Below are positions 432 through 13,472 of a DNA stretch of 14,457 bases, one piece after another. Position numbers and translations under genes: made by a program. The notes under the pieces were generated by a model. That model did not search any database and had not been told where the DNA came from. It worked only from the letters and a program-made list of their open reading frames with translations. Every line of letters starts with the position of its first letter. Position 1 is the stretch's first letter. Source of the stretch: an uncultured Collinsella sp. (GTDB taxonomy: Bacteria > Actinomycetota > Coriobacteriia > Coriobacteriales > Coriobacteriaceae); contig CAAECP010000220.1 of NCBI GenBank assembly GCA_900754385.1, positions 1-14,457 of the forward strand, in the 5' to 3' direction.

Positions 432-1871
432 ATGTCCGTTAACCCTGCTGGCGTCACCAACCCGCCTGCGCAGTTTCCCGAGGGCTTTGTCTTTGGCGGC
501 GCCACCGCTGCCTACCAGGTAGAGGGCGAGACCCGCACTCACGGTAAGGGCAAGGTTGCCTGGGACGACTTCCTGGAGGCCCAGGGGCGCTTCTCCCCCG
601 ATCCCGCTTCGGACTTCTACAACCAGTACCCCGTCGATCTGGAGCTGTGCGAGGAGTTTGGCATCAACGGCATTCGCCTCTCCATTGCCTGGAGCCGCAT
701 CTTCCCCAACGGTACCGGCGAAATCAACCCCGAAGGTGTCCAGTTCTATCACGATCTCTTCGCCGAATGCCACAAGCACCACGTTGAGCCGTTTGTCACG
801 CTGCATCACTTCGATACGCCGCTTCCCCTCTTTGAGAAGGGCGACTTCCTCAACCGCGAGACCATCGATGCCTTTGTGGACTTTGCCACCTTCTGCTTTA
901 AGGAGTACGCCGACCAGGTGACCTACTGGTTCACCTTTAACGAGATCTGGGCCGACGCCTCCAACACCTACATCGAGGGCACCTTCCCCGGTGGCGTCAA
1001 GGCGCATCTGGCCGAGGCCTTCCAGTGCGAGCACAACATGATGCTCGCCCACGCCAAGGCAGTACTGGCCTTCCACAACGGCGGTTTTAAGGGCAAGATC
1101 GGCGTCATTCAGTCGCTGGAGTTTAAGTATCCGCTCAACGAGAACGACCCCGCCGACATCAAAGCCGCCAACAACGAGCACGTGCTGCAAAACCAGTTCT
1201 TGCTCGACGCCACCTTCCGCGGCGACTACGCGCCCGACACCCTCGAGTGCGCCAACCGTCTGGCTGCCGTCTCGGGCGGCACCATCGAAATCTTGGACGA
1301 GGACCTCGAGATTATGCGCGAAGCCGCGCTCTACAACGACCACCTGGGCGTTAACAACTATCAGTGCCGTTTCTTGAAGGCTTACGATGGCGAGAACGAA
1401 CTGCACCACAACGGTACGGGCGAGAAGGGCACTGGCCGCTGGCGCGTTAAGGGCATTGGCGAGCATGTGAACAAGCCCGGCGTCCCCACCACCGACTGGG
1501 ACTGGATCATCTATCCCGAGGGCCTGTTCGATCTGCTCGTCTACATTAAGCAGCGCTACCCCAACTACAAGCAGATCTTCATCACCGAGAACGGCATGGG
1601 CTACAAGGACCCCTACAAGGACGGTTTTGTGGACGATCAGCCGCGCATCGACTACATCGAGCAGCACCTGCGCTGGTTGCTCAAGGCCATGGAGGTGGGC
1701 GTCAACGTGGGCGGCTACTTCCTGTGGAGCCTGCAGGATCAGTTTTCCTGGACCAATGGCTACAACAAGCGCTATGGCTTCTTCTACGTTGACTTTGAAA
1801 CCCAGAAGCGCACGCCCAAGGCAAGCGCATACTGGTATAAGCACGTGGCGCAGACCCGTCGTCTGGACTAG
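432..1871 (+). CDS. lacG: 6-phospho-beta-galactosidase, GH1 (LacG-like, copy 1)
   Basis: This is a 479-residue cytoplasmic glycoside hydrolase of family GH1, the usual full length. It should hydrolyse a PTS-delivered 6-phospho-beta-galactoside such as lactose-6-phosphate to galactose-6-phosphate and glucose. The acid/base is E171 in TFNEI and the nucleophile is E386 in ITENG. The 6-phosphate pocket of LacG (Ser-Trp-x5-Lys-x-Tyr) is present as S439, W440, K446 and Y448 in SWTNGYNKRY. The Trp after the Ser is the residue linked to galactoside preference in lactococcal LacG, whereas many 6-phospho-beta-glucosidases have a smaller residue there. The sequence resembles staphylococcal and lactococcal LacG along its length. 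The ATG at 432 has only a weak upstream ribosome site, which suggests translational dependence on the lacE upstream. It is closest to lacG-3 among the copies here. A dual 6-phospho-glucosidase/galactosidase activity cannot be excluded. Confidence 0.92.
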   Translation: MSVNPAGVTNPPAQFPEGFVFGGATAAYQVEGETRTHGKGKVAWDDFLEAQGRFSPDPASDFYNQYPVDLELCEEFGINGIRLSIAWSRIFPNGTGEINPEGVQFYHDLFAECHKHHVEPFVTLHHFDTPLPLFEKGDFLNRETIDAFVDFATFCFKEYADQVTYWFTFNEIWADASNTYIEGTFPGGVKAHLAEAFQCEHNMMLAHAKAVLAFHNGGFKGKIGVIQSLEFKYPLNENDPADIKAANNEHVLQNQFLLDATFRGDYAPDTLECANRLAAVSGGTIEILDEDLEIMREAALYNDHLGVNNYQCRFLKAYDGENELHHNGTGEKGTGRWRVKGIGEHVNKPGVPTTDWDWIIYPEGLFDLLVYIKQRYPNYKQIFITENGMGYKDPYKDGFVDDQPRIDYIEQHLRWLLKAMEVGVNVGGYFLWSLQDQFSWTNGYNKRYGFFYVDFETQKRTPKASAYWYKHVAQTRRLD

Positions 1872-1917: not shown

Positions 1918-1966
1918 CCGGGGGCGGCACGTCACACGGCGCGCCGCCCCCGGTCTTTTTGTTTTT
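1918..1966 (+). terminator. Rho-independent terminator after lacG-1
   Basis: CCGGGGGCGGC (1918-1928) pairs perfectly with GCCGCCCCCGG (1943-1953), an 11-bp GC stem with a 14-nt loop, followed directly by TCTTTTTGTTTTT. It ends the lacE/lacG-1 transcript before the 65-nt repeat cluster. Confidence 0.93.
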
Positions 1967-1982: not shown

Positions 1983-2047
1983 GTTTGTCTCGATCTGTAA
2001 CATCTAGCCGAGTTTTTTGGTCCTAGCTGTTACAGATTGAGACGAAC
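1983..2047. repeat. 65-nt palindromic repeat, unit A1 (type 1 centre)
   Basis: The arms are GTTTGTCTCGATCTGTAACA (1983-2002) and TGTTACAGATTGAGACGAAC (2028-2047), inverted and almost fully complementary. The 25-nt centre contains CTAG on the left and CTAG on the right, which extends the stem, and a T-rich loop. It lies just past the lacG-1 terminator. Confidence 0.9.
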
Positions 2048-2063
2048 AGGATTGCTCTTTCCG

Positions 2064-2128
2064 AAGAATCTAAATCTGTAACACGTAGCCCGCTTTTGAC
2101 CGTCTACCTGTTACAAATCGAGACAAAC
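2064..2128. repeat. 65-nt palindromic repeat, unit A2 (type 2 centre)
   Basis: The core CTGTAACA ends at 2083 and TGTTACA starts at 2109, with a 25-nt centre between. Its inner stem is GTAG/CTAC where A1 has CTAG/CTAG, a compensatory C-G to G-C change. The outer seven bases of the left arm are not conserved. It is 16 bp after A1 and ends 10 bp before the stop codon of the convergent lacI-1. Confidence 0.88.
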
Positions 2129-2138
2129 GGAGTAGGAC

Positions 2139-3176
2139 CTAACCCCGTATGTCCCTAACAGTCGAGCGTTCGACCAGCGTACTCGGCACATGAATCGCCT
2201 CGATAGACGAGCTCTCTCCAATCGCCGCCTCAAACGCAAGCTTACCGACACCGCGCAAATCAAATCGCAGCGTCGTCAGCCGATTGTGAGGAACAAGTCC
2301 CTCGAGTGCGTCGTCGATACCAACCACGCTCACGTCGTCGGGCACGGACAGGCCCGCGTTCTCGAGCGCGGCGATAACGCCCAGCGCCATCTGGTCATTT
2401 GCCGCAAGCACGGCAGTCGGCGCCTGCGACCCGTCGGCAAGCACCTCGGCCGCAATCCGCTCGCCCATGGCGTACCCACTGTCCGCACTCCAATCGCCAC
2501 GCAGCATCGGAGCGGCATCGACATGCGCACGACCCAGCGTATCGCGCCAACCGGCCTCACGAAAACGCGAGGAAATCGAGTTTTCCGGACCCGCCACAAA
2601 CCGCATATTCGAGTGACCATGTTCCAGCAGATAATTGGTCAACAGCTCGCACGAACCATACTGGTCGGAGTCGATCGTCGTGCAGCGCGGATGCGCATAC
2701 ATGGACAGGATGACCGTTCGCACTCCCGGCTGGGGAACAAACTCCTCAAAATCGGGAGCCATGCGGTTCATGTTGAGAATCATGCCGTCGACGGGTCGCT
2801 CGACCATGCGGCGCGAGGCATCGGCAAGTGTATAGGGCTTGTCGCCGCCCATCTCGATCATAGTGACGGCAAAATCATGCTCGCGCGCCGCTTGCATGAT
2901 ACCCTCGAGCGTCGCCAGGTTACCGACACGTGTGATGTTGTACATGCACAGGCCAATAGAACGATACGACCCGCCGCGCAACGCCGTTCCAGCAAAATTG
3001 GGACGAAAGCCCAGCTCTTCCATGGCGGCCAGCACACGCTTGCGCGTCTTTTCCGTCACGTTGGGCATACCGTTGACCACGCGAGACACAGTCTGGCGGC
3101 TCACGCCAGCGAGCGCCGCAACCTCTGCCGCGCTCGCCGAACGACCATTCCTTGTCCGCTGAGCCATGCCTTCCAC
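2139..3176 (-). CDS. LacI-family transcriptional regulator (copy 1)
   Basis: This is a LacI/GalR-family regulator of about 345 residues. The N-terminal helix-turn-helix is AAEVAALAGVSRQTVSRVVNG (about residues 16-36 from the chosen start), followed by the hinge region and a periplasmic-binding-protein-like effector domain with family motifs such as AVLAANDQMALGVIAAL and VSVVGIDDA. I chose the GTG at 3176 because CAGG lies 5 nt upstream of it; the ATG three codons later (3167) has GGAAGG only 1 nt away, which is too close. An upstream in-frame ATG (3224) has no ribosome site and falls in the operator region. It is divergent from lacG-2 and has a palindromic site in its own leader, so it is probably an autoregulated repressor of the lacG-2/lacE-2 cassette. 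The effector is unknown; a galactoside or its phosphate is inferred. Confidence 0.9.
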   Translation of the reverse strand: MEGMAQRTRNGRSASAAEVAALAGVSRQTVSRVVNGMPNVTEKTRKRVLAAMEELGFRPNFAGTALRGGSYRSIGLCMYNITRVGNLATLEGIMQAAREHDFAVTMIEMGGDKPYTLADASRRMVERPVDGMILNMNRMAPDFEEFVPQPGVRTVILSMYAHPRCTTIDSDQYGSCELLTNYLLEHGHSNMRFVAGPENSISSRFREAGWRDTLGRAHVDAAPMLRGDWSADSGYAMGERIAAEVLADGSQAPTAVLAANDQMALGVIAALENAGLSVPDDVSVVGIDDALEGLVPHNRLTTLRFDLRGVGKLAFEAAIGESSSIEAIHVPSTLVERSTVRDIRG

Positions 3177-3227
3177 GCTAACCTGCTTCCCAACTATTCC
3201 CCGCGCCCATGGCGCATCGTACATACA

Positions 3228-3243
3228 TTGATAACGTGCTCAT
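3228..3243. promoter_or_regulatory. LacI-type operator candidate, site 1 (lacI-1 leader)
   Basis: TTGATAACGTGCTCAT is an imperfect palindrome centred on ACGT, sharing AACGTGCTCAT with site 2. It lies just downstream of the predicted lacI-1 -10 element, where a bound repressor would block transcription of its own gene. Confidence 0.55.
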
Positions 3244-3254
3244 GATACCCGAGC

Positions 3255-3284
3255 CATATACCACAACATGAAAACTTCTGTCAA
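3255..3284 (-). promoter_or_regulatory. Candidate sigma-70 type promoter of lacI-1
   Basis: On the minus strand, a consensus TTGACA -35 (3284-3279) and TATATG -10 (3260-3255) are separated by 18 bp. Transcription would start near 3247, immediately before operator site 1, leaving a leader of about 70 nt before the GTG start. Confidence 0.55.
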
Positions 3285-3359
3285 TCAAAACCGCTTACCG
3301 AACAAATACAACCGTTCGCGGCTGTTTGAAGTTGTTTTGTTTCTATACATCCCAGCCGG

Positions 3360-3397
3360 ATGTTAACGTGCTCATTGTCAAATGTTCACGTGCTCAT
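3360..3397. promoter_or_regulatory. Two LacI-type operator candidates, sites 2 and 3 (lacG-2 promoter)
   Basis: Site 2 is ATGTTAACGTGCTCAT (3360-3375) and site 3 is ATGTTCACGTGCTCAT (3382-3397). They differ at one base and their centres are 22 bp apart, about two helical turns, so they face the same side of the DNA. Site 3 has the symmetric core CACGTG with ATG and CAT ends. If TAAGAT at 3415-3420 is the -10, site 3 overlaps the -35 region. The likely ligand is LacI-1. Confidence 0.65.
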
Positions 3398-3511
3398 TTT
3401 GGTTCTAATTATTTTAAGATAGTGTTTATCGGGCTTTTTCACCGCTGAACGCTAACCAGGGAGCCTCCTGAGCGCAAACGCACAATATCGAACAGCGAGA
3501 CGAGAGGGTGT

Positions 3512-4960
3512 ATGCATATGTCTTTGCTAAACCGCGTACAGCAGCTGCCGAAGGGCTTTGTTTGGGGCGCCGCAACCGCCGCGTACCAAACGGAAGGTTC
3601 CACGAAGGTGGCAGGCAAGGGTAAGACCATGTGGGACGATTACCTTGTCGCCCAGGGTCGCTTTTTGCCCGACCCGGCCAGTGATTTCTACAACCGCTAC
3701 GAGGAGGATATCCGCCTTTCTGCCGAGCATGGGCTCAACGCCATCCGTGTGTCCATCGCCTGGACCCGCATCTTCCCCAACGGCGACGATGCCGAGCCCC
3801 TCGCCGAGGGCGTTAAGCACTACCACGAGCTGTTCGCCTGCTGCAAAAAGTATGGCGTCGAGCCCTATGTGTCCCTGCATCACTTTGACTCCCCCGCCGC
3901 CCTGTTCAACCAGGGCGACTGGCTCAACCGCAAGACCGTCGACGCCTATGTGCGCTATGCCGAGTTCTGCTTCCGCGAGTTCCGCGAGGTCAAGAATTGG
4001 TTCACCATCAACGAGCTCATCAGCCTCTCGCACTCCCAATACATCCAAGGCAACTTCCCGCCCAACCATCACTTTGATGTGACGAGCGGCATCCAGAGCC
4101 AGCACAACTTGCTCGTTGCCCACGCCCGCGCCGTCAACCTGTATAAGGATCTTGACGAGACCGAGCACCTGGGCGGCCGCATTGGCATGGTCAACGTCCT
4201 GACGCCGGCATATCCTGCCACCGACTCGCCCGCCGACCAGCACGCCGCCGACCTGTACAACGCCTTCTACACCGACTTCATCATGGACGGCGCCTTCCTG
4301 GGCCACTACTCCGCGCGCACCCTCTCACTCATCAACGAGATTCTGCGTGCCAACAACGCCACACTTACGGTTGAGGACAGCGACATGGAGGAGCTCGCCA
4401 AGGCGGCGCCCCGCAACGATATGTTCGGCCTCAACTACTATCAGTCGGCGTTTATCGCCGCCTACGATGGCGAGTCCACCAACAGCTTTAACGGCACCGG
4501 AGACAAGGGCACCTCGTGCTTTAAGTTTAAGGGCGTCGGGCAGCAGGTCGATATGCCGGGTATCCCCACCACCGACTGGGATTGGCTCATCTACCCGCAA
4601 GGCCTCTACGACACGCTCAAGCACATCAGCGCCACCTATCCCAACCTCCCCGTCATCTATATCACCGAAAACGGCCTGGGCCACAAGGACCCCGAGCCCG
4701 ACGCAAACGGCATCGTCGCCGATCCCGAGCGCATCGACTTTGTCGACCAGCACATGGAGAAGGTGCTCCAGGCGCGTGCCGAGGGCGTCGACGTCCAGGG
4801 CTACTTTATCTGGAGCCTGCAGGACCAGTTCTCGTGGGCCAACGGCTATAACAAGCGCTACGGCCTGTTCTACATCGACTTCGACACGCAAAAACGCTAC
4901 ATCAAGCAGTCGGCACTCTGGTACAAGGAGCTCGCCGACACTATGGCGGACGCGCAGTAG
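3512..4960 (+). CDS. lacG: 6-phospho-beta-galactosidase, GH1 (LacG-like, copy 2)
   Basis: This 482-residue GH1 enzyme is cytoplasmic and predicted to cleave 6-phospho-beta-galactosides delivered by the PTS. The acid/base is E168 in TINEL and the nucleophile is E386 in ITENG. The 6-phosphate and galactoside signature is intact as S441, W442, K448 and Y450 in SWANGYNKRY. It is the most divergent of the three copies here: GFVWGAATAAYQTEGSTK replaces the FVFGGATAAYQVEGETR of the other two, and it has small insertions around residues 210-220 and 400. That may mean a different aglycone or sugar. Two in-frame ATGs (3512 and 3518) follow AGAGGG; either could be used. It comes first in its operon with lacE-2, the opposite order to the other two modules, and is divergent from lacI-1. 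Confidence 0.92.
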   Translation: MHMSLLNRVQQLPKGFVWGAATAAYQTEGSTKVAGKGKTMWDDYLVAQGRFLPDPASDFYNRYEEDIRLSAEHGLNAIRVSIAWTRIFPNGDDAEPLAEGVKHYHELFACCKKYGVEPYVSLHHFDSPAALFNQGDWLNRKTVDAYVRYAEFCFREFREVKNWFTINELISLSHSQYIQGNFPPNHHFDVTSGIQSQHNLLVAHARAVNLYKDLDETEHLGGRIGMVNVLTPAYPATDSPADQHAADLYNAFYTDFIMDGAFLGHYSARTLSLINEILRANNATLTVEDSDMEELAKAAPRNDMFGLNYYQSAFIAAYDGESTNSFNGTGDKGTSCFKFKGVGQQVDMPGIPTTDWDWLIYPQGLYDTLKHISATYPNLPVIYITENGLGHKDPEPDANGIVADPERIDFVDQHMEKVLQARAEGVDVQGYFIWSLQDQFSWANGYNKRYGLFYIDFDTQKRYIKQSALWYKELADTMADAQ

Positions 4961-4981
4961 CGCATCGCCTCGCTTTCCCCC

Positions 4982-5028
4982 GAGAGGGGAGCGGCCCTAT
5001 GCGATACAAACCCAGCCGCTCCCCTCTC
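4982..5028 (+). other. Strong hairpin between lacG-2 and lacE-2
   Basis: GAGAGGGGAGCGGC (4982-4995) pairs perfectly with GCCGCTCCCCTCTC (5015-5028), a 14-bp stem with a 19-nt loop. No T-run follows, so it is not a standard terminator. It starts 21 bp after the lacG-2 stop and probably serves as an mRNA processing, stability or attenuation element. Confidence 0.6.
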
Positions 5029-5044
5029 TCCCCCTGGGACCGAC

Positions 5045-5075
5045 CCCGCCTGCACCCGGGCTTTTAGCAAGCGGG
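5045..5075 (+). other. Second hairpin in the lacE-2 leader
   Basis: CCCGCCTGC (5045-5053) pairs with GCAAGCGGG (5067-5075) with one mismatch. The interior CCGGGCTTTT could also form a smaller terminator-like hairpin with the upstream CCCG, so two alternative folds are possible. A possible -10 (TAAGAT, 5107-5112) lies downstream, without a clear -35. Confidence 0.35.
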
Positions 5076-5136
5076 AGACCATATAGGTTTTCAACGTCCA
5101 TGCCATTAAGATTTCATGCAAAGAGGAGCGTGAACT

Positions 5137-6897
5137 ATGGAATCGATCGTTAAGTTCTTGGAGAAAGGTCAGCCGTACTTCGACAAGGTCTCTAAGAACA
5201 TCTACCTTCAGGCCATTAAAGACGGCTTTTTGGCAGCAATGCCCATCATCCTGTCTTCTTCTGTCTTCCTGCTTATTTCGACCCTGCCGGGCGTTGTCGC
5301 CACGGTCGGCGGCTTTACGCTGCCCGACTGGTGGAACGTCGACGTCGTGAACTTCTGCAACAAGGTTTACAACTTCACGATGGGCGTCGTGGGCATCATG
5401 GTCGCCGGCACCACCGCAAGCGCGCTGACCGGCTCCAAGAACCGCCGCATGCCTGCCGGCAAGGCCATCAACGCCACGAGCACCATGGTCGCCGCCATGT
5501 GCGCTATGCTCATCTTGGCCGTTACCCAGACGAGTGCCAAGATCGACGGCGCCGATGTCTCGGTGTTCTTTACCGACAACATGGGCACCAAGGGCCTACT
5601 GAGCTCCTTTGTCGCCGCATTTGCCACGGTCAACATCTATGCCTTCTGCATTAAGCGAGACATCACCATCAAGCTGCCCAAAGAAGTCCCCGGCGCCATC
5701 GCCCAGAACTTCCGCGACATCTTCGCCTTCAGCTTCTCCATCCTGTTTGTCGCCGTCATCGACGTTATCTGCCGCACCTGCTTGGCCGTCCCGTTTGCCA
5801 ACGTCATCTCCACGCTGGTGAGCCCGCTGTTCGCCGCTGCCGATTCCTACGCCGGCCTCGCCCTCATCTGGTTCATGATCCCGCTGTTCTGGTTCATGGG
5901 CATCCACGGCCCCTCGGTCGTTAAGCCTGCCCTCAACGCCGCGCTTTTTGGCAACATCACCACCAACCTCGCCACGCTGCAGGCCGGCGGTCACCCCGCC
6001 CTCGCCCTGACCGAAAACTTCGGTAACTACATCGGCGAACTCGGCGGCACCGGCGCCACGTTCATTGTCCCGATCATCTTCCTGCTCTTTATGCGCTCCA
6101 AGCAGCTCAAGGCCGTCGGCAAAGCCTCTGTCGTGCCCGTGATGTTCGCCGTCAACGAGCCGCTGCTGTTCGCCGCGCCCATCATCCTCAACCCGTACTT
6201 CCTGATCCCGTTCCTGTTTGCCCCCGTGGCCAACGTCCTCATTGGTAAGTTCTTCATCGACTTTTTGGGCATGAACGGCTTTATCTATGCCATGCCGTGG
6301 GCACTCCCCGGACCGATCGGCACCTTCATCGACACCAACTTCCAGCCGATCTCTCTGGTCCTGGTTGTCGTCCTGCTGGTCGTTGACTTCTTGATCTACT
6401 ACCCGTTCTGCAAGGCCTACGACAACGTCCTGTGCAAGCAGGAGGCCGAGACCCTGGCCGAAGAAGAGGCCGAGGAGACCAAGGCCGTCAAGACCGCTGC
6501 CGCCCCCGCCGTTGAGGCTCCTGTTGTCGAGACCGCTTCTGCCACTGAGGCCTCCGCAGCTCCGTCCGCCCTTAAGGGCAAGGATCTGAGGGTTCTGGTT
6601 CTGTGCGCTGGCGCCGGCACCTCTGCACTGCTCGCCAACGCGCTTAAGGAAGGCGCCGACGAGCTGGGCATCGACATTACCGCCAACGCCGGTGCCTACG
6701 GCAGCCACTACGCCATCATGGACCAGTACAACGTCATCGTCCTGGCTCCGCAGGTTCGCACCTATTACAACGAGATGAAGGCCGACACCGACCGCCTGGG
6801 CATCACGCTGCTGTCGCCCAAGGGCAAACAGTACATCGACCTCACTAAGGATCCCAAGGGTGCCGTCGCCTGGATCGAGGAAAACCTCGAGGCATAA
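5137..6897 (+). CDS. lacE: Lactose-type PTS permease EIICB (LacE-like, copy 2)
   Basis: This 586-residue membrane protein transports and phosphorylates its sugar. The N-terminal EIIC domain (about residues 1-435) has many hydrophobic segments and begins with the LacE-like FLEKGQPYFDKVSKNIYLQAIKDGF. Family motifs are GIHGPS (H257 region) and VNEP (N340-P342), which lie in the sugar-binding part of this EIIC family. A Glu/Ala/Pro-rich linker (about 440-483) follows, then the EIIB domain with phospho-cysteine C490 in VLVLCAGAGTSALL. Length and domain order match LacE, which averages 560-590 residues. AGAGGAG lies 8 nt before the ATG. It sits 176 bp downstream of lacG-2 and is followed by a strong terminator. 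It needs a soluble EIIA, which is not in the window. The LacE family call is firm; lactose as substrate is inferred. Confidence 0.93.
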   Translation: MESIVKFLEKGQPYFDKVSKNIYLQAIKDGFLAAMPIILSSSVFLLISTLPGVVATVGGFTLPDWWNVDVVNFCNKVYNFTMGVVGIMVAGTTASALTGSKNRRMPAGKAINATSTMVAAMCAMLILAVTQTSAKIDGADVSVFFTDNMGTKGLLSSFVAAFATVNIYAFCIKRDITIKLPKEVPGAIAQNFRDIFAFSFSILFVAVIDVICRTCLAVPFANVISTLVSPLFAAADSYAGLALIWFMIPLFWFMGIHGPSVVKPALNAALFGNITTNLATLQAGGHPALALTENFGNYIGELGGTGATFIVPIIFLLFMRSKQLKAVGKASVVPVMFAVNEPLLFAAPIILNPYFLIPFLFAPVANVLIGKFFIDFLGMNGFIYAMPWALPGPIGTFIDTNFQPISLVLVVVLLVVDFLIYYPFCKAYDNVLCKQEAETLAEEEAEETKAVKTAAAPAVEAPVVETASATEASAAPSALKGKDLRVLVLCAGAGTSALLANALKEGADELGIDITANAGAYGSHYAIMDQYNVIVLAPQVRTYYNEMKADTDRLGITLLSPKGKQYIDLTKDPKGAVAWIEENLEA

Positions 6898-6928
6898 GAC
6901 GCTGACGCCACCTGCCGCTCGCAGAAAA

Positions 6929-6972
6929 AAAATGGCCCGTGCATCGATGCGTGATGCGCGGGCCATTTTGTT
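6929..6972 (+). terminator. Rho-independent terminator after lacE-2
   Basis: AAAATGGCCCGTGCATC (6929-6945) pairs with GATGCGCGGGCCATTTT (6953-6969), 17 bp with one G-T wobble and a 7-nt loop, followed by GTTT. The A-run on the left and T-run on the right mean it could act on both strands, stopping lacE-2 transcripts and any read-through from lacI-2. Confidence 0.92.
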
Positions 6973-6992
6973 TAGACCGCACCCGTCCTCCT

Positions 6993-7057
6993 GTTCATCT
7001 TAATCTGTAACATCTAGCCGAGTTTTTGGGTCCCAGCTGTTACAGATCGAGGTGAAC
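6993..7057. repeat. 65-nt palindromic repeat, unit B1 (type 1 centre)
   Basis: The arms are GTTCATCTTAATCTGTAACA and TGTTACAGATCGAGGTGAAC. The outer stem reads GTTCA/TGAAC where other copies read GTTTG or GTTCG with CAAAC or CGAAC, a compensatory change. The centre differs from A1 at only two positions. Confidence 0.9.
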
Positions 7058-7071
7058 GCACAGGCCAAGCC

Positions 7072-7136
7072 AAAAATCTCAATCTGTAACATGTAGACCG
7101 CTTTTGACCGCTTAGATGTTACAGATCGAGACAAAC
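7072..7136. repeat. 65-nt palindromic repeat, unit B2 (type 2 centre)
   Basis: The left core AATCTGTAACA ends at 7091 and the right arm TGTTACAGATCGAGACAAAC ends at 7136. The centre GACCGCTTTTGACCG resembles A2 and C2. It lies 14 bp after B1. Confidence 0.88.
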
Positions 7137-7151
7137 AGATGGGTCAATCCA

Positions 7152-7216
7152 ATCAATCTAGATCTGTAACACCTGGCTGGTCATTTCACTCCTAACTGTT
7201 ACAGATCGAGACAAAC
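7152..7216. repeat. 65-nt palindromic repeat, unit B3 (type 3 centre)
   Basis: GATCTGTAACA (left, ending 7171) and TGTTACAGATCGAGACAAAC (7197-7216) flank a 25-nt centre unlike the others (CCTGGCTGGTCATTTCACTC at its start). Only the arms and the centre length are shared, so this is the most diverged centre. Confidence 0.85.
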
Positions 7217-7232
7217 GGAATAAGCCGGGCCG

Positions 7233-7297
7233 AATTGTCTTAATCTGTAACATCTAGCCGAGTATTTCGGCCCTACCTGTTACAGATTAAGACGAAC
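7233..7297. repeat. 65-nt palindromic repeat, unit B4 (type 1 centre)
   Basis: The arms contain GTCTTAATCTGTAACA and TGTTACAGATTAAGAC, perfectly complementary over 16 bp. The TTAA/TTAA stem segment replaces the TCGA-type pairs of other copies on both sides. The centre starts TCTAGCCGAG as in A1 and B1. Confidence 0.9.
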
Positions 7298-7310
7298 AGG
7301 CCGAGCACGT

Positions 7311-8321
7311 CTACGCCCGCAGGTCCTTCACGCTGGAACGCTCGACCAGCACACCCGAGACAAGCGTACGGCTTCTGGAGCTCGGAGCTTCCAGACCTGC
7401 GACGACCTCGTTGAGCGCACGGACACCCAGCTCGCGGTGGCGAAACTTCACCGACGTCAGAATCGAGTTGGGAATCGTCTTATAGAGCTCATCGTCGAAG
7501 CCGATCACGGACACATCATTGGGCACACTGAGCCCTTTGTCACGTAGAGCCATCATCACGCCGTTTGCCATGCAGTCGTTAGCAGCGAGGACCGCCGTGC
7601 AATCGGGTTTATCGGCAAGCACAAGGCCCGCGGCATAGCCACTATCCGCATTCCAATCGCCTTGCAGAGGCTCGGGCGGCTCAATGCCACGCGCCTCGAG
7701 TGCCGCACGCCAACCTTTCATACGGCACTGGCTCGACAGCGACTCTTTCTTACCAGAGACGAAGTACACGTTTTTATGCCCGTGGTTCAAGAAGTACTCG
7801 CACGCCATGCGCGCGCCGCCCTCTTGGTCGTCACTGACGGTGGAGCAGGTAGGATGCTCCATCGGCGTAATAATCACCGTCTTGAGGTCTTTCGGCGCCT
7901 CAAAGCTATCAAAGTCATCGACCATCTGACGCAGGTTGAAGATCATGCCATCAACAGGCAGCTGCGACATTCTGCGCGCCGCATCGGCAAGAGTCATCTT
8001 CTCGCCTCCGCACTTCTTAATCATCGTGAGCGCAAAGCCGCGTTCTTCGGCGGCATCGGCGATACCGTCAATCATGTCCACGGCACCGCCCGACAAGTGA
8101 AACAGCACGACGCCGATGCAACCATAACGGCCCAACTTGAGCGAACGTGCGGCAAAGTTGGTTCGAAACCCGAGCGCCTCCATTGCGGAATGGACCTTAT
8201 CGCGTGTCGACTCGCGCACGCTATCGGGCTCGTTGATCACGCGCGACACCGTCTTGAGAGAAACACCCGCGGCAATCGCCACATCGTTCATCGAGACGTT
8301 TTTCTTGTCCATCGTTGCCAC
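7311..8321 (-). CDS. LacI-family transcriptional regulator (copy 2)
   Basis: This regulator is about 336 residues from the chosen start. The helix-turn-helix is MNDVAIAAGVSLKTVSRVIN (about residues 11-30), followed by the hinge and a sugar-binding-type effector domain (TAVLAANDCMANGVMMAL, VSVIGFDDE). The GTG at 8321 has GGAG 5 nt upstream and lies three codons before an ATG (8312) that lacks a well-placed site; lacI-1 has the same GTG-x-x-ATG arrangement. The recognition-helix residues (Leu-Lys here, Arg-Gln in copy 1) differ, which fits the different operator sequences beside each gene. It is divergent from lacE-3/lacG-3 and is probably their repressor. It resembles lacI-1 throughout (for example FALTMI, ADAARRM, PVDGMI), so the two are old duplicates. 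The effector is unknown. Confidence 0.9.
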   Translation of the reverse strand: MATMDKKNVSMNDVAIAAGVSLKTVSRVINEPDSVRESTRDKVHSAMEALGFRTNFAARSLKLGRYGCIGVVLFHLSGGAVDMIDGIADAAEERGFALTMIKKCGGEKMTLADAARRMSQLPVDGMIFNLRQMVDDFDSFEAPKDLKTVIITPMEHPTCSTVSDDQEGGARMACEYFLNHGHKNVYFVSGKKESLSSQCRMKGWRAALEARGIEPPEPLQGDWNADSGYAAGLVLADKPDCTAVLAANDCMANGVMMALRDKGLSVPNDVSVIGFDDELYKTIPNSILTSVKFRHRELGVRALNEVVAGLEAPSSRSRTLVSGVLVERSSVKDLRA

Positions 8322-8434
8322 TGCTTCTCCACTCGGTCCTCTATCGCTTGTTTTTTGCGTTCTAGCATACACTACCTGCCTGACTGATAAATCAACCGTT
8401 TACCGGACAATATCGACCACTCACCCGTAAATCC

Positions 8435-8463
8435 TTGTTGCTCTTCCAAAAATGTCTTACGTT
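8435..8463 (+). promoter_or_regulatory. Possible promoter of lacE-3
   Basis: TTGTTG (8435-8440) and TACGTT (8458-8463) are 17 bp apart, but both match the consensus only partly. A start near 8470 would lie inside the operator, the classic layout for repression. Confidence 0.3.
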
Positions 8464-8495
8464 GTCATTAACGAAATGACAACGTTGTCATTTCG
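8461..8495. promoter_or_regulatory. LacI-type operator: perfect 24-bp palindrome plus overlapping half-site
   Basis: Bases 8472-8495 are a perfect 24-bp palindrome around AATGACAACGTTGTCATT, with the ACGT centre typical of LacI-family operators. A further half-site GTTGTCATT (8461-8469) pairs with AATGACAAC (8475-8483) to form a second inverted repeat with a 5-bp spacer, so three half-sites share one stretch. It lies between lacI-2 and lacE-3, and LacI-2 is the likely ligand. Confidence 0.82.
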
Positions 8496-8500
8496 CAATG

Positions 8501-8519
8501 CCTTCCTTAATCAGGAAGG
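8501..8519 (+). other. Small hairpin in the lacE-3 leader
   Basis: CCTTCCT (8501-8507) pairs with AGGAAGG (8513-8519) around a 5-nt loop. It begins 5 bp after the operator palindrome and would lie near the 5' end of the lacE-3 message, where it could protect the RNA. The role is inferred. Confidence 0.4.
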
Positions 8520-8596
8520 TTTCCGGGCAGTCCTGACCATCCATCGACGACCAGTTCCATCCACATGCATCGCGCATCGAGCAGCAAAGGAGCTCT

Positions 8597-10375
8597 ATGG
8601 ACGCCATCGTAAAGATGCTCGAGAAGCATCAACCGTTCTTTGAGAAGATCTCGAGGAACATCTACCTCCAGGCCATTAAGGACGGATTCCTTGGGTGCAT
8701 GCCCATCGTCCTCACCTCTTCGATCTTCCTGCTGATCGCCACCCTTCCCGGCGTAGTCGGCATCACGCTGCCCCAGCCGCTCATCGACTGGTGCAACAAG
8801 CTGTATAACTTCACCATGGGCGTCATGGGCATCATGGTTGCCGGCACCACCGCCAAGAACTTTACGGCTTCCATGAACCGTCGCATGCCCGCCGGCAAAG
8901 TGCTCAACGACGGTTCCACCATGGTGGCCGCCCAGTGCAGCATGCTGCTGCTCGCAGTCACGCAGTTCACCACCAAGTTCAACGGCTCCGAACTTTCGGT
9001 CTTCGATTGCACCAGCATGGGCACGCGCGGTCTGTTCTCGGCCTATATCGCCGCGTTCATTACCGTTTGGGTCTATAAGTTCTGCGTCTCGCGCGATCTG
9101 ACCATTAAGCTGCCCAAGGAGGTCCCGGGCGCCATCGCTCAGAACTTCCGCGACATTATCCCCTTTGGCGGCGCCGTCATCATCTGCGGCATCATCGATG
9201 TCGTCGTGCGCAACCTCATGGGCGTTCCGTTCTCCGAGCTGCTTATTAAACTGCTTTCCCCGCTCTTTACCGCTGCAGAAACCTATCCTGGCCTTATCCT
9301 TATCCAGGCAGCCACCGCGTTCTTCTGGTTCATCGGCGTCCATGGTCCTTCGATTGTCCAGCCGGGCATCGACCCCATCCGTCTTGCCAACCAGGCCGAG
9401 AACCTGCAGGTTCTGCTGGCCGGTGGCCACCCCGCCCACTCCCTCACCTTTAACATGTCGCTCGTGGGTGAGTTCGGCGGCACCGGCGCCACGTTCATCG
9501 TGCCGCTCCTGCTGATTCTCTTTATGAAGTCCAAGCAGCTCAAAGCCGTCGGTAAGGCCTCGATCGTTCCTGTTGCCTTCGCCGTCAACGAACCGCTGCT
9601 CTTTGGCGCGCCGATGATCCTTAACCCCTACATGCTCATCCCCTTTGTTGCCGCCGGCTGCGTCAACGTGAGTGTTGCCAAGTTCTTTATCGATAACGTG
9701 GGCATGAACGGCTTCTCCTTCGTGGTGCCTTGGGCCACTCCCGCCCCCATCGGTATCTTCATCACCACGAACTTCCAGCTTATCGCCCTGGTGTTTGTCG
9801 CGATCATCATCTTGCTGGACGCCATCATCTCCCTGCCGTTCTTGAAGGCATACGATAAGCTGCTCTGCGACCAGGAGGCCGAGCGTGCCGCCGAGCTGGG
9901 TCTCGAGTCCGATGGTGCTGCCACCATCGCCGCCAGCACCTCTGCGCCCGCTGTCGAGCAGACCGCCGCTTCCGTCGAGCCGACCGCCGCTGCCGCCGAC
10001 AGCAAGCCTGTCGCCGATCAGCCCGAGACCGCTGCCGATGCATCCGCCAAGAAGGATGTCGATGGTCTGAAGGTCCTCGTCCTGTGCGCCGGCGCCGGCA
10101 CCTCTGCCATGCTCGCCAACGCCATCAAGGAAGGTGCTGCGCAGACCGGAGAGAACATCGCTTCCTCCGCAGGCGCCTATGGCCAGCACACTGCCATCAT
10201 GGATCAGTACGACGTCATCGTGCTCGCCCCGCAGGTTCGTAGCTACTACAACGACATGAAGGCCGACACCGATCGTCTGGGCATTAAGCTGCTCGCCCCG
10301 CGCGGCAAGGAATATATCGACCTTACCCGCGACCCCGCTGGCGCCATCAAGTGGCTCCGCGAGAACCTCGACTAG
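8597..10375 (+). CDS. lacE: Lactose-type PTS permease EIICB (LacE-like, copy 3)
   Basis: This is a 592-residue membrane permease with an N-terminal EIIC domain (about residues 1-435), an Ala/Pro/Thr-rich linker (about 436-488) and a C-terminal EIIB domain. The start MLEKHQPFFEKISRNIYLQAIKDGF (beginning at residue 6) matches LacE closely. Motifs are GVHGPS (H249) and VNEP (N331-P333) in EIIC, and phospho-cysteine C497 in VLVLCAGAGTSAML. AAAGGAG stands 4-5 nt before the ATG. It is divergent from lacI-2 with a palindromic operator between, and lacG-3 follows 76 bp downstream, so permease and hydrolase form one operon. It differs from lacE-2 mainly in the linker and in the loop between the first two hydrophobic segments, where lacE-2 has about ten extra residues. 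EIIA must come from elsewhere. The exact sugar is unknown. Confidence 0.93.
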   Translation: MDAIVKMLEKHQPFFEKISRNIYLQAIKDGFLGCMPIVLTSSIFLLIATLPGVVGITLPQPLIDWCNKLYNFTMGVMGIMVAGTTAKNFTASMNRRMPAGKVLNDGSTMVAAQCSMLLLAVTQFTTKFNGSELSVFDCTSMGTRGLFSAYIAAFITVWVYKFCVSRDLTIKLPKEVPGAIAQNFRDIIPFGGAVIICGIIDVVVRNLMGVPFSELLIKLLSPLFTAAETYPGLILIQAATAFFWFIGVHGPSIVQPGIDPIRLANQAENLQVLLAGGHPAHSLTFNMSLVGEFGGTGATFIVPLLLILFMKSKQLKAVGKASIVPVAFAVNEPLLFGAPMILNPYMLIPFVAAGCVNVSVAKFFIDNVGMNGFSFVVPWATPAPIGIFITTNFQLIALVFVAIIILLDAIISLPFLKAYDKLLCDQEAERAAELGLESDGAATIAASTSAPAVEQTAASVEPTAAAADSKPVADQPETAADASAKKDVDGLKVLVLCAGAGTSAMLANAIKEGAAQTGENIASSAGAYGQHTAIMDQYDVIVLAPQVRSYYNDMKADTDRLGIKLLAPRGKEYIDLTRDPAGAIKWLRENLD

Positions 10376-10390
10376 TTTCCTCCCTCTGTT

Positions 10391-10417
10391 GGTGCCCGGA
10401 TCCCCAGTTCGGGCACC
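10391..10417 (+). other. Hairpin between lacE-3 and lacG-3
   Basis: GGTGCCCG (10391-10398) pairs perfectly with CGGGCACC (10410-10417) around an 11-nt loop. No T-run follows. Its position matches the hairpin at 376-407 between the other lacE and lacG pair. Confidence 0.6.
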
Positions 10418-10451
10418 TCTCCCTATTCGTATCCCACAGAAAGGATGACTC

Positions 10452-11873
10452 ATGACCAACCCCATGCAGTTCCCCGACGGCTTTGTGTTTGGCGGCGCCA
10501 CTGCTGCTTACCAGGTTGAGGGCGAGACCCGCACACACGGCAAGGGCAAAGTGCCCTGGGACGATTTCCTGGCTGCTCAGGGTCGCTTCTCTCCCGATCC
10601 TGCAAGCGACTTCTACAACAAATATCCGGTCGATATCGACCTGTGCCAGCGTTTTGGCATCAACGGTATCCGTGTCTCCATCGCTTGGAGCCGCATCTTC
10701 CCCAACGGCACCGGCGAGATTAACCCCGAGGGCGTCGCCTTCTATCATGAGCTCTTTGCTACCTGCAACAAAGCCGGCGTCATCCCCTATGTCACGCTCG
10801 ATCACTTTGATACGCCCGAGGCCTTTTACCAGGACGGCGGCGAGGGTTTCCTGACGCGCACGACAATCGACGCCTTTGTCGAGTACGCCAAGTTCTGCTT
10901 TGCCGAGTTCACCGAGGTCAAGCACTGGTTCACGTTTAACGAGATTCCCGCAACCGCCGAGGGCAGCTTTATCGTCGGCAACTGGCCGCACGGCGAGAAG
11001 TACCGCCTGGACAAGGCCTTCCAGCTCATGCACAACATGATGGTGGCCCACGCCAAGGCCGTCGTCGCCTTCCACGAGGGCGGTTTTGAGGGCGAGATCG
11101 GCATTGTCCAGAACCTGGAGCCCAAGTATCCCCTCGATCCCAACAGCGCTGCCGACTGCGAGGCCGCCCGCATGGCCGACGTCATCAACAACCGCTGGGT
11201 GCTCGACGCCACTTTCCGCGGCCACTATGCAGCCGACACCATGGAGGCTGCGACCAAGCTGGCCCATATCGCCGGCGGCGAGCTCGACGTCCGCGACGAG
11301 GACATCGCTGCGCTGACCGCCGCGCTCCCCTACAACGATTGCCTGGGCGTCAACACCTACAAGTGCCAGTTCCTGCGTGCCGCCGAGGGCGAAAACGACA
11401 TCAACCACAATGGCACCGGCGACAAGGGCTCCTCGCGCTGGTTCCTCAAGGGCGTGGGCGAGTCATGCGTGCGCGAAGGCGTACCCACCACCGATTGGGA
11501 CTGGATCATCTATCCCGAGGGCCTGTACGACCTACTGCTCCGCATTAAGAACGATTACCCCAACTACAAGAAGATCTACATCACCGAGAACGGCATGGGC
11601 TATAAGGACGACTTCGAGGACGGATTTATCGACGACGCCCCTCGCATCGACTACATGCGTCAGCATCTCGCATGGGTCCTCAAGGCAATCGACGGCGGCG
11701 TAAACGTCGACGGTTACTTTGTGTGGTCGCTGCAGGACCAGTTCTCCTGGACCAACGGCTACAACAAGCGCTACGGCCTGTTCTACATCGACTTCGAGAC
11801 CCAGAAGCGCTATCCCAAGGCGAGCGCGTACTGGTACAAGAACGTCGCGGAGACCGGCCTGCTCATGGCCTAA
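10452..11873 (+). CDS. lacG: 6-phospho-beta-galactosidase, GH1 (LacG-like, copy 3)
   Basis: This 473-residue cytoplasmic GH1 enzyme is predicted to hydrolyse the phosphorylated disaccharide imported by lacE-3. The acid/base is E164 in TFNEI and the nucleophile is E379 in ITENG. The phosphate-binding and galactoside signature is S432, W433, K439 and Y441 in SWTNGYNKRY. AAAGGA lies 6 nt before the ATG. The N-terminal third is nearly the same as lacG-1 (FGGATAAYQVEGETRTHGKG in both), with differences around the acid/base (NEIPATAEGSF here, NEIWADASNTY in copy 1), a region that lines the active site and could change the accepted aglycone. It is the last gene of the lacE-3 operon and is followed by a strong terminator. 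Confidence 0.93.
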   Translation: MTNPMQFPDGFVFGGATAAYQVEGETRTHGKGKVPWDDFLAAQGRFSPDPASDFYNKYPVDIDLCQRFGINGIRVSIAWSRIFPNGTGEINPEGVAFYHELFATCNKAGVIPYVTLDHFDTPEAFYQDGGEGFLTRTTIDAFVEYAKFCFAEFTEVKHWFTFNEIPATAEGSFIVGNWPHGEKYRLDKAFQLMHNMMVAHAKAVVAFHEGGFEGEIGIVQNLEPKYPLDPNSAADCEAARMADVINNRWVLDATFRGHYAADTMEAATKLAHIAGGELDVRDEDIAALTAALPYNDCLGVNTYKCQFLRAAEGENDINHNGTGDKGSSRWFLKGVGESCVREGVPTTDWDWIIYPEGLYDLLLRIKNDYPNYKKIYITENGMGYKDDFEDGFIDDAPRIDYMRQHLAWVLKAIDGGVNVDGYFVWSLQDQFSWTNGYNKRYGLFYIDFETQKRYPKASAYWYKNVAETGLLMA

Positions 11874-11895
11874 CTTTTGCCGCATACCCCCTGTC

Positions 11896-11943
11896 GGCCG
11901 CATACGAATCCCCCACGGGTTCGTATGCGGCCTTTTTGTTTTT
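11896..11943 (+). terminator. Rho-independent terminator after lacG-3
   Basis: GGCCGCATACGAA (11896-11908) pairs perfectly with TTCGTATGCGGCC (11920-11932), and CCC/GGG in the loop can extend the stem. TTTTTGTTTTT follows directly. Confidence 0.94.
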
Positions 11944-11961
11944 GGTGGGCTCGAGCGGATC

Positions 11962-12026
11962 ATTCGTCTCGATCTGTAACATTTAGCAGGGATTTTCAAT
12001 CCTAACTGTTATAGATTTAGACGAAC
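11962..12026. repeat. 65-nt palindromic repeat, unit C1 (type 1-like centre)
   Basis: The arms are ATTCGTCTCGATCTGTAACA and TGTTATAGATTTAGACGAAC. The inner stem is TTAG/CTAA, where A1 has CTAG/CTAG and A2 has GTAG/CTAC, so the same base pair is T-A, C-G or G-C in different copies. Confidence 0.87.
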
Positions 12027-12041
12027 GGGCGACCAGGGCTG

Positions 12042-12106
12042 AAAGATCTCAATCTGTAACACGTAGCCCACTTTCGACCGTCTACCTGCTACAGATCAAG
12101 ACAATA
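12042..12106. repeat. 65-nt palindromic repeat, unit C2 (type 2 centre)
   Basis: The left core ATCTCAATCTGTAACA ends at 12061 and the right arm starts TGCTACAGATCAAGAC at 12087. The centre CGTAGCCCACTTTCGACCGT is nearly that of A2. The right end (ACAATA) has decayed. It lies 15 bp after C1. Confidence 0.86.
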
Positions 12107-12155: not shown

Positions 12156-12232
12156 TTTTCGGTATAACGAACATACTTTCGGTATCATTTAATGATATTA
12201 TGATATCGAAAGTATGTTCGTGATACCGAAAG
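12156..12232. promoter_or_regulatory. 33-bp inverted repeat over the fic promoter and ribosome site
   Basis: The left arm (12156-12188) and right arm (12200-12232) are complementary at 30 of 33 positions, with an 11-bp AT-rich spacer. Each arm holds two copies of a TTTCGGTAT-type half-site, giving four half-sites in all. A good -10, TATGAT (12199-12204), sits at the centre, and the right arm runs into the AAAGGAG ribosome site. This layout suggests an operator for autorepression, possibly by the winged helix of the Fic protein itself. Confidence 0.75.
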
Positions 12233-12239
12233 GAGCCGC

Positions 12240-13472
12240 ATGCGCCAGTTCGATTACACCACAGTCCCAGCGGAACTCGAAGCAACTCCAATCACCAACC
12301 TCCTCCTCTCGATACGCGAGCATAAAGGCCGTCAGCTTGCTCTGAGTCAAGTCAAACCCGAGCTTCTATCGTCCCTAATGGAGGAGGCTAAGATCCAAAG
12401 CACCCGATCCTCCAACGGACTTGAAGGAATTGTTACCACCCAAAAAAGACTCAAAGCGATCATGGCGTATTCCGCCAAGCCAAGCTCCCGCGCAGAGGAA
12501 GAAATTGCTGGATACCGAGATGTGCTGTCGCTTATTCACGAGCAACACGATTCCATTCCCGTAACGCCATCGGTCATTCTGCAGTTGCATCGTGACCTCA
12601 TGGCGCACACGGCAATCTCGTATGGAGGCCATTGGAAAGATGGCGATAACGAAATCGTCTCCATTGACGATCAAGGAAATCGATTTGTGCGCTTTAGGCC
12701 CCCTTCGGCCCTAGCAACCCCGGGACTTATTAAAGAAGCCTGCCAGTCCCTCAACGATGCTTTATCTCGCCAAGTTTGCGATCCCCTCCTTATATCGCTC
12801 CGCTTTATCTTCGATTTTGTCAGCATCCATCCCTTCAACGATGGCAATGGCAGGATGAGCCGGCTCCTTACAACGCTGCTGCTCGAAAAGACTGGATACG
12901 ACGTTGCGCGTCACATCAGCATCGAACGACTTATTGAAGACAACAAAGCGCTTTACTACAACGCTCTCGCTGCAAGCTCCACTGGATGGAATGAAAATCA
13001 AAACACCGAAGTACCCTTTATCCGTTTCATGCTCGGAACAACCCTGGCCGCCTACCGACAGCTCGAGCAGCGTACCCTAATTGAATCAAGCACTCGTCCC
13101 ATGTCGAAGCAAGCGCGCATCGCTGTTCTATTTCAACAGAGACCCGGCGTCATTAAGAAATCCGACATCCGGTCCAACTGCCCCGATATCAGCGAGGTAA
13201 CCGTTAAACGAACCCTCGGTCAGCTTGTTAGTTGCAGCGCAATCGAAAAAACAGGAGCGGGCCGTTCGACGGGCTACATACTCAAAGACGTCCATGCTCT
13301 AGAACTATTCTTGCAATCCACAATACCCGATGGCGAGGCCGCAATAACAAAAGAGGCTCCAAAGGATAAGCTCCTTGAACGTGTAAACCACGCCGAGGAT
13401 GAAAGCAAAGAGGGACTCTATGAAGACTATGATTCATTCTCAAGGGACATAAAGACGAAATACGGAGTCTAG
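12240..13472 (+). CDS. fic: Fic-family protein with C-terminal winged helix (class II)
   Basis: This 410-residue protein has the Fic active-site motif HPFNDGNGRMSR with H197 as the catalytic histidine, D201 and the GNGR anion-binding turn intact. Such enzymes usually transfer AMP (or another phosphate-linked group) to a hydroxyl side chain of a target protein. The inhibitory-helix motif (S/T)xxxE(G/N) is on the N-terminal side as S58-x3-E62-G63, which places it in the self-inhibited class II, so no separate antitoxin gene is expected and none is seen. Residues of about 288-349 look like a winged helix-turn-helix (KKSDIRSNCPDISEVTVKRT). AAAGGAG is 4 nt before the ATG. Base and codon use are clearly AT-richer than the lac genes, suggesting acquisition by transfer. 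Its stop codon shares CTAG with the end of the convergent regulator remnant. The target is unknown. Confidence 0.93.
   Translation: MRQFDYTTVPAELEATPITNLLLSIREHKGRQLALSQVKPELLSSLMEEAKIQSTRSSNGLEGIVTTQKRLKAIMAYSAKPSSRAEEEIAGYRDVLSLIHEQHDSIPVTPSVILQLHRDLMAHTAISYGGHWKDGDNEIVSIDDQGNRFVRFRPPSALATPGLIKEACQSLNDALSRQVCDPLLISLRFIFDFVSIHPFNDGNGRMSRLLTTLLLEKTGYDVARHISIERLIEDNKALYYNALAASSTGWNENQNTEVPFIRFMLGTTLAAYRQLEQRTLIESSTRPMSKQARIAVLFQQRPGVIKKSDIRSNCPDISEVTVKRTLGQLVSCSAIEKTGAGRSTGYILKDVHALELFLQSTIPDGEAAITKEAPKDKLLERVNHAEDESKEGLYEDYDSFSRDIKTKYGV

Follow-up and report, generated by a model that had tools for sequence, protein, structure and literature searches.

Regularly spaced intergenic palindromes, often placed after transcription units, are familiar from enterobacteria as repetitive extragenic palindromic (REP) sequences and bacterial interspersed mosaic elements (BIMEs), and BIMEs are bound by gyrase, IHF or Pol I. 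Conserved palindromes also serve as the targets of SlmA, Noc, MatP and ParB, which are short single sites present in tens of copies per chromosome. REPs of the GTAG/CGTC superfamilies are described, in the available part of one source, as stem-loops of 20 to 40 nt with an unpaired GTAG or CGTC tag, in families that vary between species; that part of the text makes no mention of Actinobacteria or Collinsella (PMC3733652). Here, we analyzed a stretch of 14,457 nucleotides (the window) from an uncultured Collinsella sp. (contig CAAECP010000220.1, assembly GCA_900754385.1), which harbors eight copies of a palindromic repeat in three intergenic arrays, A, B and C. To our knowledge, the chromosome organization of Collinsella aerofaciens, a common human gut bacterium, has not been studied.

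Our favored but tentative reading is that these units are candidate double-stranded protein-binding sites under selection. It builds on the symmetry of the units, their near-invariant arms, the lack of covariation, the fixed pitch of the arrays, their intergenic placement, the constraint on the arms of orthologous units and the inheritance of arrays at the same loci.

The repeat is a 63-bp dyad arranged in phased arrays

A model built from the eight copies reported in the initial annotation recovered exactly those eight in the window and nothing further up to an E value of 5, with the following scores.

1984..2046, plus strand: unit A1, 63-bp dyad (88.6 bits; alignment)
2065..2127, plus strand: unit A2 (83.0 bits)
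6994..7056, plus strand: unit B1 (80.3 bits)
7073..7135, plus strand: unit B2 (79.3 bits)
7153..7215, plus strand: unit B3 (82.3 bits)
7234..7296, plus strand: unit B4 (84.5 bits)
11963..12025, plus strand: unit C1 (80.5 bits)
12043..12105, plus strand: unit C2 (77.5 bits)

Because the unit is nearly symmetric, the same eight, which scored 77.5 to 88.6 bits on the plus strand, were also matched on the minus strand (36.6 to 59.4 bits). The reported core-to-core gap of 25 nt was confirmed in 8/8 units, as was the regular spacing within clusters, with start-to-start distances of 81 bp in array A, 79, 80 and 81 bp in array B and 80 bp in array C.

As seen across the family, each unit consists of near-invariant inverted arms, RTCTCRATCTGTAACA and TGTTACAGATYGAGAY, flanking a variable 25-bp interior; in the window, the right core is TGTTATAG in C1 and TGCTACAG in C2. 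The logo of 294 distinct units reads WWT-RTCTCRATCTGTAACA-NCTAG-N-SSSS-WWW-SSSS-N-CTAGN-TGTTACAGATYGAGAY-AWW, where the letters of the TGTAACA and TGTTACA cores are invariant by selection, since the units were chosen by those cores. The other arm positions were near-invariant too, save for sites that take only A or G and, at their mirror positions, only C or T. The interior is free in sequence, yet it retains an A/T center, G/C blocks and TA steps. By arithmetic on the logo, the TCTC and TGTAACA blocks and their mirrors fall near multiples of 10.5 bp.

A fixed-length scan of an unbiased contig from a relative (669 kb) detected 28 units in 11 arrays, the lowest scoring 39.3 bits, with no further position above 0; one shuffled copy of the contig yielded zero units, and the repeats therefore exceed chance. 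The bimodal scores indicate that decayed copies are rare. The fixed-length scan misses units with a 1-nt indel; one such unit and one decayed half-site were found separately on this contig. Of 144 complete arrays found in fetched loci, 12 held one unit, 51 held two, 57 three and 22 four, with single arrays of five and eight (raw unit counts leave overlapping loci of one genome unmerged, while distinct units were de-duplicated by sequence). The pitch was mostly 80 or 81 bp, and neighbors lay 79 to 81 bp apart in 240/242 pairs. The initial annotation gave all units the same orientation, which holds for the T-rich center of the window units only; across 44 locus groups, with one array taken from each, the center polarity of adjacent units was random (35 same, 33 opposite). 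Sixteen half-site matches lay outside the scored units: 12 formed six inverted pairs, representing units that the fixed-length or score limits had missed, two were truncated where a locus ended or by a stretch of N, and two belonged to decayed units. Intact lone half-sites were absent from the fetched records.

Mirror positions do not covary

The initial annotation proposed that compensatory changes keep the stem and that the folded form is under selection. The quoted changes do exist in the sequence, as chosen cases within eight copies; nevertheless, the claim that the stem is kept was overstated, since the cited inner pair (C-G, G-C, T-A) is broken in 3/8 units. RNAalifold on the eight copies gave a both-sided change in only 1 of 17 predicted pairs. 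In 283 to 320 distinct units, the mirror positions did not covary and paired less than expected from shuffles, contrary to selection on a fold. For instance, at mirror columns -7/39 (283 units) the combinations A-C, G-C, A-T and G-T occurred 74, 73, 69 and 66 times, and at the free mirror positions A-C mismatches were as common as G-U (74 and 66; 77 and 78). Over all 31 mirror columns of 320 distinct units, Watson-Crick pairing reached 62.5%, versus 66.6% in shuffles (z -12.7), and in the interior 32.9% versus 42.6% (z -15.5); the inner columns 11/21 also paired less than shuffles (z -9.3), while the arm pair -6/38 lay slightly above them (94% versus 92%). As a control, we used a second palindrome of the 669-kb contig, TTGCGGTG...CACCGCAA, taking the 13 of its 14 dyads that have equal length. 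This small control leaned the opposite way (z +1.9), which argues that the pairing test is not blind.

Folding is not under selection in the array units. The lack of covariation led us to reject RNA or cruciform folding as the selected form, and the conserved base pairing of an intrinsic terminator or structured RNA was not found. According to the initial annotation, an absence of covariation in more copies would speak against its proposal; this is what we observed for the fold, while the existence of the family is unaffected.

Arms are constrained at orthologous loci

Divergence between strains was counted in orthologous arrays with equal unit numbers. Over all 32 arm columns, and leaving out of each record the unit that had brought the locus in, the arms differed by 3.5%, the interior by 7.5% and the 40-bp flanks by 9.4% (121 pairs, 161 unit comparisons), and the arms diverged less than the flanks in 19 of 22 locus groups. 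Whole arms thus diverge about 2.7 times less than the flanking DNA, not 10-fold, and the constraint stands. The uncorrected count had given 1.1% for strict arm sites, 14.4% for purine/pyrimidine sites, 7.6% for the interior and 9.0% and 10.9% for the outside 40 bp (138 pairs), with arms under flanks in 24/25 groups; its arm figure is biased downwards because the strict sites were picked from the logo and the loci were fetched by exact arm match. Linker length was the same in 188/204 orthologous linkers, though linker sequence diverges by 10.5%. Units were gained, lost or replaced whole, and the unit at a given place was of another type in 48/400 comparisons.

For 15 locus groups of other strains, the flanks adjoin in the unbiased contig, at 13 places. 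Eleven of these places (13 groups) carried units, and the other two had a unit with a 1-nt indel and a decayed remnant, respectively, so that none of the 15 judged groups showed a clean empty site. A further 16 groups had a single flank or separated flanks, and most of the remaining loci, having been picked for their units, are uninformative on absence. As for a target-site duplication, the logo has no strongly conserved flank, and there was no empty site to define one. The dxs locus of array-less species was considered as an empty site; gene order was not conserved where readable, making it uninformative.

None of the 11 arrays on the 669-kb contig overlapped a gene in our own gene calls. When each of the 44 locus groups was represented by a single array, 14 arrays lay in convergent, 16 in tandem and 9 in divergent gaps, four over weak predicted open reading frames only and one at an edge. 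Compared with the gaps of at least 100 bp on the contig (55 convergent, 205 tandem, 68 divergent), arrays were enriched in convergent gaps (Fisher p 0.008, with biased sampling, unmatched gap lengths and our own gene calls). Their median distance to a stop codon was 72 bp, shorter than that to a start codon (about 140 bp). The 40 flanking proteins scanned had diverse functions, including RF3, dxs, aconitase, pantothenate kinase and PreP.

The family is confined to the C. aerofaciens group

A search of Coriobacteriia genomes, as suggested in the initial annotation, showed the family to be genuine and confined to part of Collinsella. Exact cores numbered 18 to 47 in each of 22 of 43 Collinsella genomes, with one in genome G037 and zero in 20. 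Among 296 Coriobacteriia, 21 were positive, every one of them also in the genus list, and none of the 259 sampled Coriobacteriia outside that list had an exact core. Scanning for exact matches, with each species represented by one genome, gave at least 120 stretches, and all 80 listed were from Collinsella. With the eight-copy model, the 22 array-rich genomes had at least 47 to 109 matches each (both strands counted), and G019, G029, G037 and G038 had two each, representing one site on both strands. The family is thus confined to the C. aerofaciens group within Collinsella.

In G019 and G038 the single unit lies next to a TetR-type gene; as a partner at lone sites this gene was set aside, being found in only 2/43 genomes. 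The G037 unit is near a contig end and the G029 unit is beside a truncated one; both look like imports. Viral carriage was likewise rejected: of three viral-contig matches, one was a Collinsella-like pair (L121) and two look like chance, and array B had no match in the phages searched. The sole plasmid match of array A was NZ_OY725717.1, a 0.9-Mb C. aerofaciens record labeled "plasmid 6," which has array A with its surrounding sugar genes and 15 matching places overall. This record is probably a mislabeled part of the chromosome.

Consistent with the description of an unrecognized intergenic palindromic family, no Rfam match exceeded its gathering score: 14 matches were obtained up to an E value of 5, and those on the units scored only 23.3 and 21.8 bits versus 70 and 89. 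Among the matches listed, openly available literature on Collinsella or Coriobacteri* repeats or palindromes did not report the family, nor did the papers listed by more general searches.

Private palindrome families recur in Collinsella

The control palindrome belongs to the C. aerofaciens group (joined contig G002:C2) and has the form TTGCGGTG-N47-CACCGCAA, 63 bp, with 14 copies in 669 kb (e.g., at 143277, 245141 and 442003). Thirteen of them have N47 and one N46, and in all three copies with an inner GTTCC a GGAAC accompanies it.

Genome G043, which lacks the arrays, has a dyad family of its own. An iterated half-site search of 400 kb found 63 half-sites of AAAACSTMMTYTCGA, 46 of which make up 23 inverted pairs with a constant start-to-start distance of exactly 46 bp and thus 64-bp dyads, whose left and right halves are often unlike (loci L209-L228; e.g., L214:12658-13413). 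Twelve others are direct repeats 50 to 52 bp apart (e.g., L225, about 4350-4540), some in a duplicated stretch, and five are unpaired; an apparent gene between two half-site groups proved to be repeated sequence interrupted by N. The model made from the 23 dyads matched G043 at least 112 times (both strands) and had no match in the other 42 genomes. In 400 kb of G038, likewise without arrays, 24-bp palindromes GCYYCGAGAGTTAACTCTCGRRGC occurred in pairs exactly 52 bp apart (6/6 pairs; L189-L208; e.g., L197:1796-1871), and the pair model matched this genome 28 times (both strands) and no other of the 43. By eye, only hairpin-type palindromes were seen in 400 kb each of G017 (CAAATCGGGGACGTACCT...AGGTACGTCCCCGATTTG; L269-L288) and G041 (GACAAGAT...ATCTTGTC, most copies in one contig; L260-L267).

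Private palindrome families therefore recur in Collinsella, and the non-covarying dyad plan of 63 or 64 bp is present in two of five lineages sampled. We consider it a speculative and rather doubtful proposal that Collinsella lineages mark their chromosomes with private, fixed-geometry intergenic dyads of about 63 bp (in the C. aerofaciens group, 63-bp dyads in 80-bp arrays; in G043, 64-bp dyads with another half-site), read by a fast-evolving architectural protein. If so, the private dyad sets would be a quickly diversifying code of bacterial chromosome organization.

The window arrays lie among lactose-type PTS operons

The window contains three lacG-type, two phosphotransferase system (PTS) IIBC and two LacI-type regulator genes, a setting of lactose-type PTS operons, and the same gene order is annotated in NZ_OY725717.1. 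The features next to the arrays are as follows.

432..1871, plus strand: 6-phospho-beta-galactosidase (lacG family), upstream of array A; NCBIfam TIGR01233 above cut-off
1918..1962, plus strand: terminator-like hairpin and T run, 3' of the lacG-type gene, ending about 20 bp before array A; by eye, absent from the terminator scan output
2139..3224, minus strand: LacI-family regulator, convergent toward array A; NCBIfam LacI-family models, all below cut-offs
5137..6897, plus strand: lactose/cellobiose PTS IIBC, upstream of array B; NCBIfam TIGR00410 barely above cut-off
6933..6971, no strand assigned: terminator-like hairpin with an A run before and a T run after, just before array B; by eye, absent from the terminator scan output
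7311..8372, minus strand: LacI-family regulator, convergent toward array B; NCBIfam LacI-family models, all below cut-offs
10452..11873, plus strand: 6-phospho-beta-galactosidase (lacG family), upstream of array C; NCBIfam TIGR01233 above cut-off
11896..11942, plus strand: intrinsic-terminator-like site with a 16-pair stem, about 20 bp before array C; terminator scan
12240..13472, plus strand: Fic-domain protein, downstream of array C; NCBIfam weak, below cut-off, with Pfam Fic above cut-off for the gene of a relative at the same place (L058)

Each window array starts about 20 bp past a terminator-like hairpin, two of them found by eye and one by the scan, which gave 15 such sites in the window versus 12.8 expected in shuffles. 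Directly upstream of the Fic-domain gene lies a 32-nt inverted repeat (12157-12231; 94% complementary, 11 nt between arms), possibly an operator or hairpin. An open frame at 13469-13849 matches only the C-terminal part of DeoR-type regulators and is apparently a gene remnant, and a PTS IIB-like frame lies close to the window end (14014-14418).

The units may be sites of a DNA-binding protein

From these observations we infer a protein, bending and bridging of the DNA and a cellular role, including one at operon boundaries, which might act as follows. A sequence-specific, oligomeric DNA-binding protein would occupy each 63-bp unit as a duplex, with two like half-sites opposing each other across the dyad. 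The A/T center with its TA steps and the G/C blocks could bend the DNA so that one complex grips both halves, and usually two to four units at the 80/81-bp pitch would assemble one larger nucleoprotein complex between transcription units. The likeliest role would be in chromosome architecture or as a boundary between adjacent operons, as proposed for BIMEs and the sites of nucleoid proteins.

Several observations were counted in favor of the protein-site reading. Mirror sites have a purine-only or pyrimidine-only freedom that is independent on each side, the inner positions avoid pairing, and the arms are constrained between strains. The near-constant pitch of 79 to 81 bp, with equal linker lengths despite linker divergence, the occurrence of half-sites as inverted pairs, the rarity of decayed copies and the placement of the conserved blocks near multiples of 10.5 bp point the same way.

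Other points weigh against it. No DNA-binding protein was found for the arms, to which binding is predicted from sequence, and the pitch does not correspond to whole helical turns (80.5/10.5 = 7.67). Lineage-private palindrome families would be unusual for the sites of a housekeeping chromosome protein. Arms diverged more than flanks in 3/22 locus groups, and gene conversion between units could also keep the arms alike. A bias toward the origin, as some architecture sites would be expected to have, was weak (p 0.025 in G005 and 0.18 in G004, using exact units and assumed genome lengths). We put the odds of protein-binding sites slightly below even and consider mobile DNA unlikely, taking into account that the arm constraint weakens on correction and that the check for RAYT genes covered part of the relevant genes. 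If the units are protein sites, one 63-bp duplex would be a ready bait for the DNA-binding protein of dozens of phased, constrained arrays, and the arrays allow a clean test of whether dispersed bacterial palindromic repeats are host-selected sites or mobile DNA.

Alternative explanations

The strongest alternative, although we judge it unlikely, is miniature mobile DNA of the REPIN or miniature inverted-repeat transposable element (MITE) type, in which a transposase would recognize the arms as its ends, the interior would serve as filler, and arrays would expand through local duplication. The REPIN plan is alike, with two invariant inverted 16-mers around a spacer and some tandem copies, in the available part of its description (PMC3116915), and REPIN populations reportedly last millions of years, according to the part available of another source (PMC8049555). 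Genes of the Y1_Tnp (IS200/RAYT) type occur in 37/43 Collinsella genomes, including all 22 array-rich ones, and the lineage-private palindrome families of G043 and G038 would also suit mobile elements. However, a RAYT-type partner found no support where checked: of the 85 Y1_Tnp matches listed, 20 loci were fetched, and none had a unit within about 1.5 kb, only 10 of these loci being in array-rich genomes and only 3 of those 10 being of long, RAYT-like size. All six Y1_Tnp matches in G004 and G005 were more than 110 kb from any exact unit, and G043 has no Y1_Tnp match despite its at least 112 dyad matches. The intact lone half-sites that are notable in REP genomes were not seen in the fetched records, which also led us to reject an insertion sequence with the arms as its ends. 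Finally, no judged locus offered a clean empty site, and individual loci show a constraint on the arms for which a purely selfish copy would have no need.

It is improbable that the units serve as operators through which a transcription factor regulates their neighboring genes, such as the sugar PTS operons. All three window arrays do sit among such operons, and several arrays are found upstream of a start codon at a distance of up to about 140 bp. Nevertheless, the flanking functions are diverse, too varied for a sugar-gene regulon, 14 of the 39 loci that could be placed are convergent gaps, in which neither neighbor has its promoter, and arrays lie closer to stop than to start codons.

Terminators, mRNA-stabilizing hairpins or small RNAs are highly improbable, for although a fold of the consensus is possible (17 pairs; folding term, -14.99 kcal/mol) and convergent genes could be transcribed into arrays, the mirror positions lack covariation, A-C mismatches match G-U in frequency, the window arrays start beyond terminator-like hairpins, the eight window units lack a T run after the stem, and no Rfam family was found for them.

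Comparison with known systems

The REP- or BIME-like character suggested in the initial annotation is supported as regards distribution. Like the REPINs of Pseudomonas and others, which come closest in design, the array units have two conserved inverted ends of about 16 nt around a variable spacer, are intergenic, occur in tens of copies and are sometimes in tandem. REPIN ends overlap a palindromic REP and form a long hairpin, whereas the array arms are non-palindromic save for the 7-nt TGTAACA, and pairing is below shuffles. Neither half is a small hairpin bearing a GTAG tag, and the 294-unit logo contains no stem-loop tagged with GTAG or CGTC. In the Y1_Tnp loci checked, we found neither a RAYT-type gene adjoining a unit nor one flanked by copies. 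Array units also differ from REPINs in that no intact lone halves were seen in the fetched records, in an interior and linker that vary within an array and in their strict 80/81-bp pitch. The family is therefore REPIN-like partly in layout, yet we do not class it as REPIN. With BIMEs, compared by description and not by sequence, it shares regularly spaced palindromes in intergenic gaps, but its center polarity is random and not alternating, and pairing is not conserved. Like the sites of SlmA, Noc, MatP and ParB, it places tens of conserved palindromic sites across the chromosome, and differs from them in consisting of 63-bp dyads in phased arrays.

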